Shown: positions 12,341 through 39,803 of the stretch, piece by piece
How the letters are laid out: each line of letters opens with the position of its first letter
Numbering within the stretch: position 1 is the stretch's first letter
From: Aggregatibacter kilianii
GTDB lineage: Bacteria > Pseudomonadota > Gammaproteobacteria > Enterobacterales > Pasteurellaceae
Assembly (NCBI RefSeq): GCF_003130255.1
Contig: NZ_NRCN01000002.1
Location: forward strand, 310,001 to 374,000
Length of the DNA stretch: 64,000 nt
Direction of reading: 5' to 3'
The notes under the pieces: generated by a model
The model's input: only the letters and a program-made list of their open reading frames with translations
What the model was told of the DNA's origin: nothing
Databases searched by the model: none
Made by a program: the position numbers and the translations under genes

Positions 12341-12417
12341 TGGTGGGTCGTATAGGATTCGAACCTATGACCAATGGATTAAGAGTCCACTGCTCTACCA
12401 GACTAAGCTAACGACCC
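12341..12417 (-). tRNA. tRNA-Lys(CUU)
   Basis: A 77-nt cloverleaf with CCA encoded. The acceptor stem GGGTCGT pairs with ACGACCC. The anticodon stem GTGGA/TCCAT carries loop CTCTTAA, giving anticodon CUU, which reads AAG. The T-arm carries GTTCGAATC. It is near-identical in its acceptor stem to the neighbouring tRNA-Lys(UUU), suggesting duplication followed by anticodon change. Same transcript as that tRNA. Confidence 0.92.
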
Positions 12418-12440
12418 ATTTGGGAAATACAGCTTTAAAT

Positions 12441-12516
12441 TGGTGGGTCGTGAAGGATTCGAACCTTCGACCAACGGATTAAAAGTCCGCTGCTCTACCG
12501 ACTGAGCTAACGACCC
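12441..12516 (-). tRNA. tRNA-Lys(UUU)
   Basis: A 76-nt cloverleaf with CCA encoded, acceptor GGGTCGT/ACGACCC, anticodon stem GCGGA/TCCGT and loop CTTTTAA (anticodon UUU, reads AAA and AAG). It lies 23 bases upstream of tRNA-Lys(CUU) in the direction of transcription. A promoter with TTGATT, a 16-base spacer and TATTAT lies at 12569-12542. Confidence 0.95.
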
Positions 12517-12748: not shown

Positions 12749-12777
12749 AAAAAACCGGGATACTACCCGGTTTTTTT
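12749..12777 (-). terminator. Terminator of the tol-pal operon
   Basis: CCGGG pairs with CCCGG around a six-base loop. The stem is extended by an A-run on one side and a T-run on the other, about 15 bases after the pal stop. Functional on the minus strand and possibly in both directions. The rest of the 12517-12792 gap holds one USS (near 12639) and the tRNA promoter. Confidence 0.82.
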
Positions 12778-12792
12778 GTACGATACAATAAA

Positions 12793-13254
12793 TTAGTATG
12801 CTAACACTGCACGACGGTTTTTAGAGTATGCAGCTTCGTCATGACCTAACTCAGCCGGTTTTTCTTCACCGTAAGAAACGGTAGAAACTTGACCTGCTTG
12901 AACACCTTTAGAAGTTAGGTAGTTTTGTACTGCGTGTGCACGACGCTCACCTAATGCCATGTTATATTCCGGTGTACCACGTTCATCAGTATGACCTTCA
13001 ACACGTACACTTGTTGCCGGAGTTGCGTTTAAGTATGCAGCGTGAGCATCTAAGATTTGAACATATTCACCTTGAATATCGTATTTATCAAAACCGAATA
13101 ATACGGTGTTATAACGTTGTTGCAAATCTTGAACGGAATAGCCACCAAAAGTTTGGTTGCTACCATTACCGTTTTCAGTTTTGTTAGAAGATCCACAAGC
13201 TGCTAATACAGCTACTGAACCGGCAACTAATAATGCTTTAGTCAATTTATTCAT
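12793..13254 (-). CDS. pal: Peptidoglycan-associated lipoprotein Pal (P6-like)
   Basis: A 153-residue lipoprotein. The signal peptide ends in the lipobox LAAC with Cys20 as the lipidated residue. An OmpA-like peptidoglycan-binding domain (about 50-153) follows, with [16 protein letters not shown] and LGERRA, including the Asp and Arg that hold diaminopimelate. It anchors the outer membrane to the cell wall and binds TolB. The H. influenzae orthologue is the P6 outer-membrane antigen. Last gene of the tol-pal operon, 15 bases after tolB. Confidence 0.97.
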
Positions 13255-36748: not shown

Positions 36749-37402
36749 ATGTCTGAAACACAAGAAACCATAAACTATAATCTCTTAAAACATCGTTTCC
36801 GTGGCTATTTACCGGTAATTATTGATGTGGAAACCGCAGGCTTGAATGCTAAAACCGATGCATTGTTAGAAGTGGCAGCAATTACGGTAAAAATGGATGA
36901 CAATGGTCATTTGGTACCGGATCAAAAATGCCATTTCCACATTCAACCTTTTGAAGGCGCAAATATCGATCCTGAATCCATTAAATTTAACGGCATTGAC
37001 ATTGACAACCCGCTGCGCGGTGCCATCAGTGAAAACATTGCCATCAGCGAAATGTTTAAAATGGTACGCCGCGCACAGAAAGACGCCGAGTGCCAACGCT
37101 CGATTATTGTGGCGCATAATGCAGCCTTTGATCAGGGCTTTATTATGGCAGCAGCCCAACGTACCAACGCCAAACGCAACCCATTTCACCCTTTTTCCAC
37201 CTTTGATACGGCAACCCTAAGCGGTTTTATGTTTGGTCAAACGGTGTTAGTTAAAGCCTGCCAAGCGGCCAAAATCCCTTTTGATGGTTCACAAGCACAC
37301 TCTGCCCTTTACGACACGGAACGTACTGCAGAATTATTTTGTTATATGGTGAATCACTTAAAAACACTGGGTGGATTTCCACATATCGTGGCGGAAGATT
37401 AA
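36749..37402 (+). CDS. rnt: Ribonuclease T
   Basis: A 217-residue DEDDh 3'-5' exoribonuclease. Motifs are ExoI (IIDVETAGL near 20-28), ExoII ([11 protein letters not shown] near 118) and ExoIII ([14 protein letters not shown] near 180). It trims the 3' ends of tRNA and other stable RNAs. The ATG at 36749 has TAGGAAAATGT ahead of it. It is followed by the histidine attenuator region. Confidence 0.96.
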
Positions 37403-37452: not shown

Positions 37453-37481
37453 TTGCGACCAAAAACATTTTCCAGTAGTTT
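37453..37481 (+). promoter_or_regulatory. Candidate promoter of the histidine-attenuated transporter
   Basis: TTGCGA (37453-37458) and TAGTTT (37476-37481) are separated by 17 bases. Transcription would start near 37488, just ahead of the leader-peptide ribosome-binding site (AGGAG at 37498). The -10 is a weak match, so moderate confidence. Confidence 0.5.
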
Positions 37482-37509
37482 AAAAGGCAATTCACACAGG
37501 AGATTTAAA

Positions 37510-37551
37510 ATGAACTTTATTCGTCACCATCACCACCATGTAACTGAATGA
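37510..37551 (+). CDS. Histidine leader peptide
   Basis: A 13-codon reading frame, MNFIRHHHHHVTE, with AGGAG six bases ahead of the start. Five consecutive His codons (CAC and CAT) make ribosomes stall when charged tRNA-His is short. It has the hallmark of his-operon leaders but lies in front of a transporter gene. It is followed by the hairpins of an attenuator. Confidence 0.93.
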   Translation: MNFIRHHHHHVTE

Positions 37552-37574
37552 TCTTTCAGGTATTTGGTGTGCTT

Positions 37575-37657
37575 GGAAGATAACTTCCGAGCAGGTACGA
37601 ATAAATCATTGCATATCGCCCCCTCGGAAGTCTGCTTTCGAGGGGGTTTCTTTTTTT
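37575..37657 (+). promoter_or_regulatory. Histidine transcription attenuator
   Basis: The three mutually exclusive structures of a classical attenuator can be read. The pause hairpin pairs GGAAG (37575-37579) with CTTCC (37584-37588). The antiterminator pairs CTTCCGAG (37584-37591) with CTCGGAAG (37623-37630). The terminator is a 12-bp stem (37619-37630 with 37635-37646) plus T-run to 37657. With histidine scarce, a ribosome stalled at the His codons frees the antiterminator and the transporter is made. Confidence 0.92.
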
Positions 37658-37755
37658 ACATCAAATTAATCCCCACAAAATAAAATGGCAATTTTATTAG
37701 ACAAATTTTGTATTTCGAGTAAATTATCAATAACTTAACTTATAAGGATAAACAC

Positions 37756-39108
37756 ATGTTAACCAACCCCGTCGTTATTTCGATCATCGTTTTGCTGGCA
37801 CTGAGCTTGTTACGCATTAACGTGATCATTGCACTGGTTATGTCAGCCTTAACCGCCGGTTTAGTCGGAAATTTAGGTTTAACCAAAACCATCGAAGCCT
37901 TTACGGGCGGACTTGGTGGCGGTGCCGAAGTCGCCATGAACTACGCAATGCTCGGTGCTTTTGCCATTGCGATTTCCAAATCGGGTATTACGGATTTAAT
38001 CGCTTACAAAATCATCACCCGCATGAATAAAGTGCCGACTGCAAATAGCCTCGCCATGTTCAAATATGCCATGCTCGGTATCTTAACGCTGTTCGCCATT
38101 TCCTCACAAAACCTATTGCCGGTGCACATTGCCTTTATTCCTATCGTTATTCCGCCGATGCTTGCCATCTTCAATAAACTGAAAATTGACCGTCGTGCTG
38201 TGGCTTGTGTCCTCACATTCGGTTTAACCGCCACTTATATGCTATTGCCTGTAGGGTTCGGGAAAATCTTTATTGAGAGCATTTTGGTGAAAAATATTAA
38301 TACCGTAGGCGGAGCGTTAGGATTGCAAACCAGTGTAGGGGAAGTTTCGTTGGCAATGACTATTCCGGTTATCGGCATGATTTTAGGATTACTCACCGCC
38401 ATCTTTATCACCTATCGCAAACCGCGAGAATATGTGGTGCTAACAGCCGAACCGACAAGTGAGGAGATCAAACAACAGGTCGCCAATATTACACCAAAAC
38501 AAATCACGGCCAGTTTAATCGCTATTGTTGCCACCTTCACCGTGCAATTAGTGACCAGTTCCACCATTATCGGAGGCTTGGTAGGTTTGATCATCTTTGC
38601 CGCCTTTGGCATTTTCAAACTCAAAGAAAGCAACGATATTTTCCAACAAGGCTTACGTTTAATGGCCATGATCGGTTTCGTGATGATCGCCGCTTCCGGC
38701 TTTGCCAATGTGATTAATACTACGAGCGGTGTAAAAGAATTGGTCGATGTATTAAGCACCGGTATCATTCAAAGCAAAGGTGTCGCCGCGTTCCTGATGT
38801 TGCTCGTCGGTTTACTTATCACTATGGGGATCGGTTCTTCCTTCTCTACCGTGCCGATTATTACTTCCATTTATGTGCCGCTTTGTTTATCTTTCGGCTT
38901 CTCCCCGCTTGCTACCGTGTCTATTGTCGGTGTTGCGGCAGCCTTGGGTGATGCAGGTTCGCCGGCATCTGACTCCACATTAGGGCCGACATCCGGTTTG
39001 AATATGGATGGTAAACACGACCACATTTGGGATTCCGTTGTGCCGACCTTTATTCACTACAACATTCCGTTGTTAGTCTTCGGTTGGATTGCCGCCATGT
39101 ATTTGTAA
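37756..39108 (+). CDS. NhaC/YuiF-like membrane transporter, probable histidine permease
   Basis: A 450-residue protein with 11-12 hydrophobic helices, including the motifs GGLGGGAEVAMNYAMLGAFAIA (near 52-73) and VAAALGDAGSPASDSTLGPTSGLN (near 393-416), typical of the Na+/H+ antiporter-like ArsB/NhaC superfamily (YuiF group). It is annotated as a sodium:proton antiporter in relatives. The histidine attenuator in front strongly suggests the real substrate is histidine, and comparative-genomic studies have proposed this for the family. RBS AAGGA at the right distance. It is followed by an inverted USS pair. Confidence 0.85.
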   Translation: MLTNPVVISIIVLLALSLLRINVIIALVMSALTAGLVGNLGLTKTIEAFTGGLGGGAEVAMNYAMLGAFAIAISKSGITDLIAYKIITRMNKVPTANSLAMFKYAMLGILTLFAISSQNLLPVHIAFIPIVIPPMLAIFNKLKIDRRAVACVLTFGLTATYMLLPVGFGKIFIESILVKNINTVGGALGLQTSVGEVSLAMTIPVIGMILGLLTAIFITYRKPREYVVLTAEPTSEEIKQQVANITPKQITASLIAIVATFTVQLVTSSTIIGGLVGLIIFAAFGIFKLKESNDIFQQGLRLMAMIGFVMIAASGFANVINTTSGVKELVDVLSTGIIQSKGVAAFLMLLVGLLITMGIGSSFSTVPIITSIYVPLCLSFGFSPLATVSIVGVAAALGDAGSPASDSTLGPTSGLNMDGKHDHIWDSVVPTFIHYNIPLLVFGWIAAMYL

Positions 39109-39112
39109 GTCT

Positions 39113-39156
39113 AAAAGTGCGGTTGAAAAAACACGTAAATTTTTCACCGCACTTTT
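39113..39156 (+). terminator. Inverted USS pair after the histidine-transporter gene
   Basis: AAAAGTGCGGT (39113-39123) and ACCGCACTTTT (39146-39156) form the stem, with extra A/T pairs inside (GAAAAA/TTTTTC). It ends the transporter transcript; priC begins 25 bases later. Confidence 0.75.
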
Positions 39157-39180: not shown

Positions 39181-39747
39181 ATGAACAACATTTCTATCCA
39201 ACGTTTAAAACAAAGCCTTCAGCATTTCTTCGCGCGTTATGACACGCAGAAAGAAGAAACGGTTTACGCCAAATTTTCAGAAAATTTATTCACGGAAAAC
39301 TGGCGAAAAACAGCGTTTTATTTTGAGCAGATTGAACAAACATTCTCTCAGATTGAGCAGATTAAAGGTGAGAATCTTGAAGCCTTGCAGTTCTACACGC
39401 AAAAACTATCGGCACAATGTACCGCACTTTCGGATGCGTTAACCCGTCAACAGCAAAATGCGCAACTCTTTCCCATTAAAGCGCAAGAAGAAAGCAAACC
39501 GGCGGATAAACGCCATCATCCCGTTCACACCCTACCACCACGAGAACGCTTGGCGAAATACTATGAATATTTAGCCTCTTTTAATGAGAAAATTCAGTGT
39601 GAACAAGATGATTTAAGCAAAACGCAAAGAGAAGGATTGCCGTTGAATCGACAAAAATTGGAACAGCTGGAACAACGCCGCGCCCGTTGTTTAGAAGCCA
39701 TTGAAATGTTGGAAGAATATTTAGTTTTCCTGGAAAAACAGAAATAA
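39181..39747 (+). CDS. priC: Primosomal replication protein PriC
   Basis: A 188-residue, highly helical protein rich in Gln, Glu and Lys, with the PriC pattern of an N-terminal helix bundle (RLKQSLQHFFARYD), a conserved PPRERLAKYYEYLASFNEKI segment near 120-139 and a C-terminal coiled part. PriC loads DnaB helicase at stalled forks by binding SSB-coated DNA. The first ATG at 39171 is in another frame; ATG 39181 is used. Same position as in H. influenzae, after rnt and the transporter. Confidence 0.85.
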   Translation: MNNISIQRLKQSLQHFFARYDTQKEETVYAKFSENLFTENWRKTAFYFEQIEQTFSQIEQIKGENLEALQFYTQKLSAQCTALSDALTRQQQNAQLFPIKAQEESKPADKRHHPVHTLPPRERLAKYYEYLASFNEKIQCEQDDLSKTQREGLPLNRQKLEQLEQRRARCLEAIEMLEEYLVFLEKQK

Positions 39748-39754
39748 CCGCAAT

Positions 39755-39786
39755 AAAAAACCTCGCAATACATTGCGAGGTTTTTT
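39755..39786. terminator. Bidirectional terminator between priC and miaB
   Basis: CCTCGCAAT pairs with ATTGCGAGG (9 bp), flanked by A6 and T6, so it serves both convergent genes. Confidence 0.92.
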
Positions 39787-39803
39787 ATTTTGATGCGTTC
39801 TAA

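Follow-up and report, generated by a model that had tools for sequence, protein, structure and literature searches.

The yuiF gene of the oral bacterium Aggregatibacter kilianii is preceded by a complete histidine attenuator, which is very probably a classical ribosome-mediated switch of the his-operon type placed before a histidine permease gene. In the window, that is, the whole stretch of DNA that was analysed (64,000 nucleotides), the region 37510-37657 was found from sequence and folding to hold a leader peptide, a pause hairpin, both antiterminator helices and a terminator (Table 1). The mechanism is an ordinary one, in which we infer ribosome stalling, read-through and histidine uptake at yuiF. 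Under a shortage of charged tRNA-His, the ribosome would stall on the five His codons of the leader and cover strand A; B:C and D:E would then pair, E:F would be blocked, and the permease would be made. When histidine is ample, the ribosome would reach the stop codon, C:D and E:F would form, and transcription would end before yuiF.

Table 1. Features of the yuiF locus, with positions in the window.
Feature	Position	Strand	Basis or remark
rnt (RNase T)	36749-37402		Upstream neighbour of yuiF
Candidate leader promoter P1, TTGCGA-N17-TAGTTT	37453-37481	+	By eye
Shine-Dalgarno AGGAG of the leader peptide	37498-37502	+	Sequence
Leader peptide MNFIRHHHHHVTE, 13 residues	ATG 37510 to TGA 37551	+	Sequence
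A:B pause hairpin	37534-37569	+	Minimum free energy fold; pairs counted
B:C antiterminator helix, 9 pairs	37552-37560/37572-37580	+	Alignment pair count
C:D hairpin, 9 pairs, termination conformation	37571-37579/37584-37592	+	Fold and alignment pair count
D:E antiterminator helix CTTCCGAG / CTCGGAAG, 8 pairs	37584-37591/37623-37630	+	Alignment pair count
E:F intrinsic terminator, 12-pair stem	37619-37630/37635-37646, T-rich run to 37657	+	Fold, scan and pair count
Promoter-like element P2, TAGACA-N16-TAAATT	37698-37725	+	Promoter scan
yuiF, 450-aa NhaC/YuiF-type permease, probable histidine importer	37756-39108	+	Pfam
Inverted repeat AAAAGTGCGGT...ACCGCACTTTT, uptake-signal-like	39113-39156	+	Sequence
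priC	39181-39747		Downstream neighbour of yuiF

The preliminary description of this DNA had named a 13-residue leader with five consecutive His codons, a pause hairpin, the D:E antiterminator, a 12-bp terminator and overlapping switch strands, and all of these were confirmed to the base, so that the observation of a complete histidine attenuator stands. Its account of the strands was exact but omitted B:C and C:D. The five His codons occupy 37525-37539, and strand A covers the fourth and fifth of them, as control by a ribosome requires. The termination fold consists of A:B, C:D and E:F, and the antitermination fold of B:C and D:E. The two are mutually exclusive, as strand E is common to D:E and E:F, and B:C competes with both A:B and C:D. 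Rfam model RF00514 (His_leader) was found to match 37527-37653 at 67.0 bits (E 2e-8), the gathering score being 49. Folding of the leader region, which had been proposed as a check, gave a minimum free energy of -68.2 kcal/mol, far more stable than shuffled sequences (mean -34.25, sd 4.03; z -8.42), and 0 of 200 shuffles folded as well.

The leader is found at some orthologues of the gene and is lacking at others. A scan for orthologues returned 130 relatives, from which 80 named loci were retained; in a tree with these, the yuiF product falls inside Aggregatibacter, and it is 96% identical to the A. kilianii transporter. A His-rich leader was found at 33 of the 80 named orthologues, leaving 47 without one. 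At 26 of the 33, an upstream ORF carries at least three consecutive His codons, and the remaining seven, all from Rodentibacter, have shorter runs such as HHRHH. A lack of His codons in orthologous leaders had been named as an observation that would count against the attenuator, and what was found is a mild form of this, in that some Rodentibacter leaders have three His codons that are not all consecutive. Because the His codons themselves defined a leader in this count, a leader without them would escape it, and Rfam scans served as a check: in none of the 47 leaderless named loci did any part of the fetched sequence reach the His_leader gathering score, and all 10 of the 33 leadered loci that were scanned were over it. 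In the Pasteurellaceae genome set, which overlaps the named loci, yuiF was found in 119 of 121 genomes, and a His_leader lies just upstream of it in at least 41 of the 119.

Outside the family, the pairing was not encountered. In a sample taken across the order, a homologue was found in 89 of 148 genomes, nine of which belong to the same family. Some His_leader is present in 75 of the 80 homologue-bearing genomes outside the family, yet among the matches listed, obtained with stricter filters by which weak matches are lost, none lies at 5 kb or less from the homologue in any of the 80 genomes. Three consecutive His codons were found upstream at 0 of 21 fetched loci outside the family, and Rfam His_leader in none of 11 scanned loci there. 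The 47 leaderless orthologues and the absence of such a neighbour in the 80 genomes, among the matches listed, indicate that the link between attenuator and yuiF is lineage-specific.

In the gene tree, the leadered genes of Haemophilus, Aggregatibacter and Rodentibacter form one clade (28 rows, SH-aLRT 100), which includes two leaderless Rodentibacter genes, and a second leadered set, around Glaesserella, Ursidibacter, Bibersteinia and Otariodibacter, stands amid leaderless genes. Five changes of leader state are needed by parsimony on the 53-row tree, at least four of them forced by starred branches, and parsimony does not distinguish gain from loss. The two leaderless Rodentibacter loci nested in the leadered clade (L074 and L076) have an rnt-like coding sequence close to yuiF. 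An rnt gene within 1.5 kb upstream was seen at 24 of 25 leadered loci of the first clade, at none of the eight of the second set and at 37 of the 47 leaderless loci. Two database titles look wrong: L083, titled "Pseudomonas stutzeri" (NCTC11607), clusters with Rodentibacter and Haemophilus, and L123, titled "Rodentibacter caecimuris", with Bisgaardia.

An alignment of orthologous leaders had also been suggested as a check, and one was made from 26 of the 34 yuiF leaders (that of the window and 25 of the 33, with eight close copies omitted) plus the leader that precedes hisG in the same genome. In all 27 sequences, the nine pairs of B:C, the eight of D:E and the nine of C:D are kept. The E:F stem has 12 of 12 pairs in 25 of the 27 and, as aligned, nine of 12 in the other two (L120 and L122), and A:B keeps eight to 10 of 10 pairs throughout. 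In the termination fold, 97.6% of cells are paired and five pairs are changed on both sides; its covariation score of 0.136 compares with 0.115 for shuffled alignments, was reached in 0 of 500 of them and is far above that of slid versions, while its pair types were equalled by 53 of the 500. In the antitermination fold, 100% of cells are paired and the score is 0.120 against 0.092 shuffled (0 of 500 as high), with one B:C pair changed on both sides, jointly from A-U to G-C, in nine sequences. The number of pairs changed on both sides in this fold was equalled by 492 of 500 shuffles and the pair types by all 500. Since the nine sequences are the eight of the second leadered set and the hisG leader, this B:C change may be a single event. 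The covariation support for the switch is thus real but modest, and the conservation of both alternative folds is the stronger point. Together with the Rfam match, these data uphold the identification of the element as a histidine attenuator.

The candidate promoter P1 in front of the leader was not among the sites returned by a consensus promoter scan. A TTGC..TAG[TC]TT block recurs in most Haemophilus, Aggregatibacter and Rodentibacter leaders and is absent from five rows of the H. parainfluenzae type, and the second leadered set has TTGC..TATATT.

A further element bears on how much of yuiF expression the attenuator commands. P2 lies between the E:F terminator and yuiF and was picked up by the promoter scan with a 9/12 consensus match, as one of three sites of that quality against 1.6 expected. 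Its 27-bp core was found upstream of yuiF at 20 of the 47 leaderless named loci, against 0.07 expected from resampled sequence, at all five named Aggregatibacter loci as well as in the window, and, in altered form, at two of the 28 other leadered loci (H. haemolyticus and H. quentini); the remaining 27 leaderless loci are without the pattern. The pattern was widened after the alignment had been inspected; the strict pattern, which was used first, occurs at 16 of 47 leaderless, three of five Aggregatibacter and 0 of 28 other leadered named loci. In the whole genome, the strict pattern has a single match, at yuiF, and the wider one has two forward matches and one reverse match in the 64-kb window, only one of them at yuiF. 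Among 20 loci of the wider genome set, P2 was found at 0 of eight leadered and six of 12 leaderless loci; at least seven of these 20 (G001, G008, G037, G054, G063, G066 and G092) repeat named loci according to the 53-row tree, and without the repeats the counts are 0 of six and five of seven.

The simplest reading of this pattern is that P2 would be the ancestral yuiF promoter, kept behind the attenuator in Aggregatibacter and lost in most other leadered lineages, although it could also be an operator or a remnant. As an older promoter past the terminator, it may supply part of yuiF expression in Aggregatibacter independently of histidine. In the preliminary description, the attenuator controls the gene; that this control is full is unsure for Aggregatibacter, because an element common to leaderless relatives lies past the terminator. 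The possibility then arises that the attenuator works but is minor in this genus, with most yuiF mRNA starting at P2, inherited from a leaderless ancestor, and histidine barely affecting the transporter level. The distribution of the P2 core, its uniqueness in the genome in the strict form and its detection by the promoter scan all speak for such an arrangement, whereas the 9/12 match is of a quality expected more than once by chance, more than half of the leaderless loci lack the pattern, and the aligned Aggregatibacter loci have an intact leader. On balance, we consider a minor role of the attenuator a serious possibility, but the less probable one.

As a separate observation, a second small upstream ORF that begins M-(R/Q), with a His soon after and in most cases a GGAG-type site in front, was seen between the terminator and yuiF at 12 of 20 leadered Haemophilus and Rodentibacter loci (L069, L070, L072, L073, L075, L077, L080, L083, L084, L087, L089 and L143); nothing alike was found at the five Aggregatibacter loci.

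The product of the gene had been described as an NhaC/YuiF-like protein, and its matches to PF03553 (Na_H_antiporter, 254.8 bits) and PF13726 (Na_H_antiport_2, 107.2 bits), both over the cut-off, agree with this; B. subtilis YuiF has both domains. Each of the two control genomes, E. coli and B. subtilis, also has a match to PF13726, which in one of them exceeds the cut-off. No NCBIfam model matched the product, and a search for sequence relatives with a solved structure gave no matches at E up to 1. An AlphaFold model built from 25 aligned orthologues (mean pLDDT 75.6, pTM 0.74) gave only broad structural matches, to DASS/INDY, TRAP SiaQM, AbgT-type and ArsB proteins and an integrative model of MleN, which we take to be an NhaC-family malate/lactate antiporter. 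TM scores for the 27 best matches with E up to 0.001 were 0.33-0.50. The inverted repeat behind the gene is probably its terminator. A paralogue at G000:C1:1520342 (25% identity) was considered as a second YuiF and rejected, as its best match is the GntP permease model (PF02447) and PF03553 is below the cut-off. In this GntP-like permease (G000:C1:1520342-1521484, L005), PF13726 matches two stretches, which suggests that PF13726 marks a repeated half of the permease fold.

By family and regulation, the best reading is that the yuiF product probably imports histidine. The preliminary description had proposed this substrate while noting little direct proof of it, a statement that is outdated for the family: passages of PMC10817146 present SAUSA300_0846, of the YuiF type, as the main histidine transporter of Staphylococcus aureus on the basis of radiolabel uptake, with 3H-histidine uptake compared in the wild type, mutant and complement. 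In Firmicutes, yuiF is placed in HisR regulons and, in two auxotrophs, under a His T-box, according to the relevant passages of PMC9413887. The family uptake data and the histidine-linked regulation together carry the assignment. We regard it as unlikely that Na+(K+)/H+ antiport is the main activity of the product, its control by histidine tying pH or ion homeostasis, rather than uptake, to histidine metabolism. In annotations, members of the family are called Na+/H+ antiporters, and the Pfam names agree; K+:H+ antiport is attributed to SAUSA300_0846 in a preprint, as mentioned in the consulted part of PMC10817146; and H. influenzae HI0325, taken here as the orthologue by gene order (it is listed next to the primosomal protein HI0326), carries the annotation sodium:proton antiporter in PMC3877243. 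Against antiport as the main activity stand the S. aureus uptake data, the link to histidine through three unrelated devices (the attenuator here, and HisR and T-box as described in passages of PMC9413887), and, as weak support because TM is at most 0.50, a model that resembles organic-anion carriers, with no NhaA-type antiporter among the best 50 of 300 structure matches.

In the 2.46-Mb genome, two sites pass the His_leader cut-off, namely the yuiF leader and the leader of the hisG operon, which encodes MYLTNALHHHHRLPE and lies ahead of a 299-aa ORF that we read as hisG, a name given from sequence. Since the second leader stands ahead of hisG, the synthesis genes and the candidate uptake gene share one kind of switch, and because the his operon has a leader of its own, uptake and synthesis of histidine would be co-regulated. 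In a tree of leaders (74 rows), the leader of the window falls in a group of 11 rows (92/89, not starred) with the other yuiF leaders of its clade, and this group is separate from the leaders that those genomes have at hisG; the deep forks are weak and unresolved, and the bootstrap had not settled. That the yuiF leader is a decaying, functionless copy of the hisG leader is accordingly very hard to credit: the two leaderless Rodentibacter species and the fewer His codons of some relatives (for example, MNIIHPHHRFTE) lean that way, but both antiterminator helices are intact in every aligned leader, with some compensatory change, and the window copy does not join the hisG leader of its own genome.

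Other matches were also encountered. A third match to His_leader in the window (39672-39790, 36.6 bits) lies across the priC 3' end and the terminator that follows; being below the cut-off and having no His run, it was set aside as chance. A borderline Rfam match to the CpoB/ybgF thermometer (12753-12892, minus strand, 52.5 bits against a gathering score of 51) lies near two tRNA genes at 12344-12516. In 15 Pasteurellaceae genomes, 32 leaders at genes other than yuiF were read, and six of these, His-rich and with a His_leader match, precede genes for DppA-like peptide-binding proteins (L148, L160, L164, L168, L172 and L175); for the four of these six proteins that were scanned, the best model was DppA, under its cut-off. 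At L145, L151, L153 and L155, a separate His leader stands directly before an ORF that looks like hisC, in addition to the leader which that genome has at hisG. Similar leaders at L149, L157, L161, L162, L165, L169 and L173 are followed by ORFs that are of another kind or not listed.

Returning to the attenuator at yuiF, its recruitment to the gene was patchy and probably repeated; the reading as repeated gain rests on the occurrence of P2 in leaderless genes related to each of the two leadered sets. A wider proposal, made tentatively and at slightly less than even chances, is that the his attenuator is a mobile Pasteurellaceae cassette that was joined independently to yuiF in at least two lineages, where it displaced an ancestral promoter. 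In Aggregatibacter, an intermediate stage would survive in which the leader stands beside the old promoter, and further copies would sit on split hisC operons and before a gene for a DppA-like peptide-binding protein.

In kind, the yuiF leader is a further instance of attenuators already known. hisL of E. coli and Salmonella (RF00514) likewise has a His-rich leader peptide, a terminator and a T-run, and its strands are laid out from A to F in the same way; unlike hisL, the yuiF leader precedes a transporter gene and not the his biosynthetic operon. Vitreschak et al. (FEMS Microbiol Lett, 2004) reportedly described his attenuators before yuiF orthologues and predicted these to be histidine transporters, predictions from which the present leader shows no difference in kind. 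SAUSA300_0846 is likened to the present protein by description, being called a potential YuiF-type histidine permease in passages of PMC10817146; according to the same passages, it differs in its Gram-positive host and in a predicted HisR site in place of an attenuator. In Alloiococcus and Dolosigranulum, the same gene family is also under RNA control by tRNA-His charging, through a T-box(His) (PMC9413887, in the part consulted), which, unlike the attenuator here, senses uncharged tRNA directly and has no leader peptide. A survey of His leaders that includes Pasteurellales lists histidine transporters as a class, and the name yuiF does not occur in its main text (PMC3766115). The his-operon leader of Actinobacillus pleuropneumoniae is treated in passages of PMC4809551 and PMC4986893. 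A literature search, with most subscription journals outside its scope, found no paper joining yuiF and Haemophilus, and one that brings together histidine, dppA, an attenuator and a leader peptide. The patchy, probably repeated recruitment and the downstream promoter-like element were not found stated in the passages of the cited papers; they and the Aggregatibacter case are described here.

Overall, the yuiF attenuator supports reading a family labelled as Na+/H+ antiporters as histidine permeases, with one signal tying histidine uptake to histidine synthesis. If P2 is active, histidine governs only part of yuiF expression in A. kilianii. If the leader is indeed a mobile cassette with copies at DppA-like genes, histidine supply would also govern peptide import. 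The attenuator is informative for evolution, and the Aggregatibacter leader with its old promoter offers a testable case of an attenuator taking over an existing gene.
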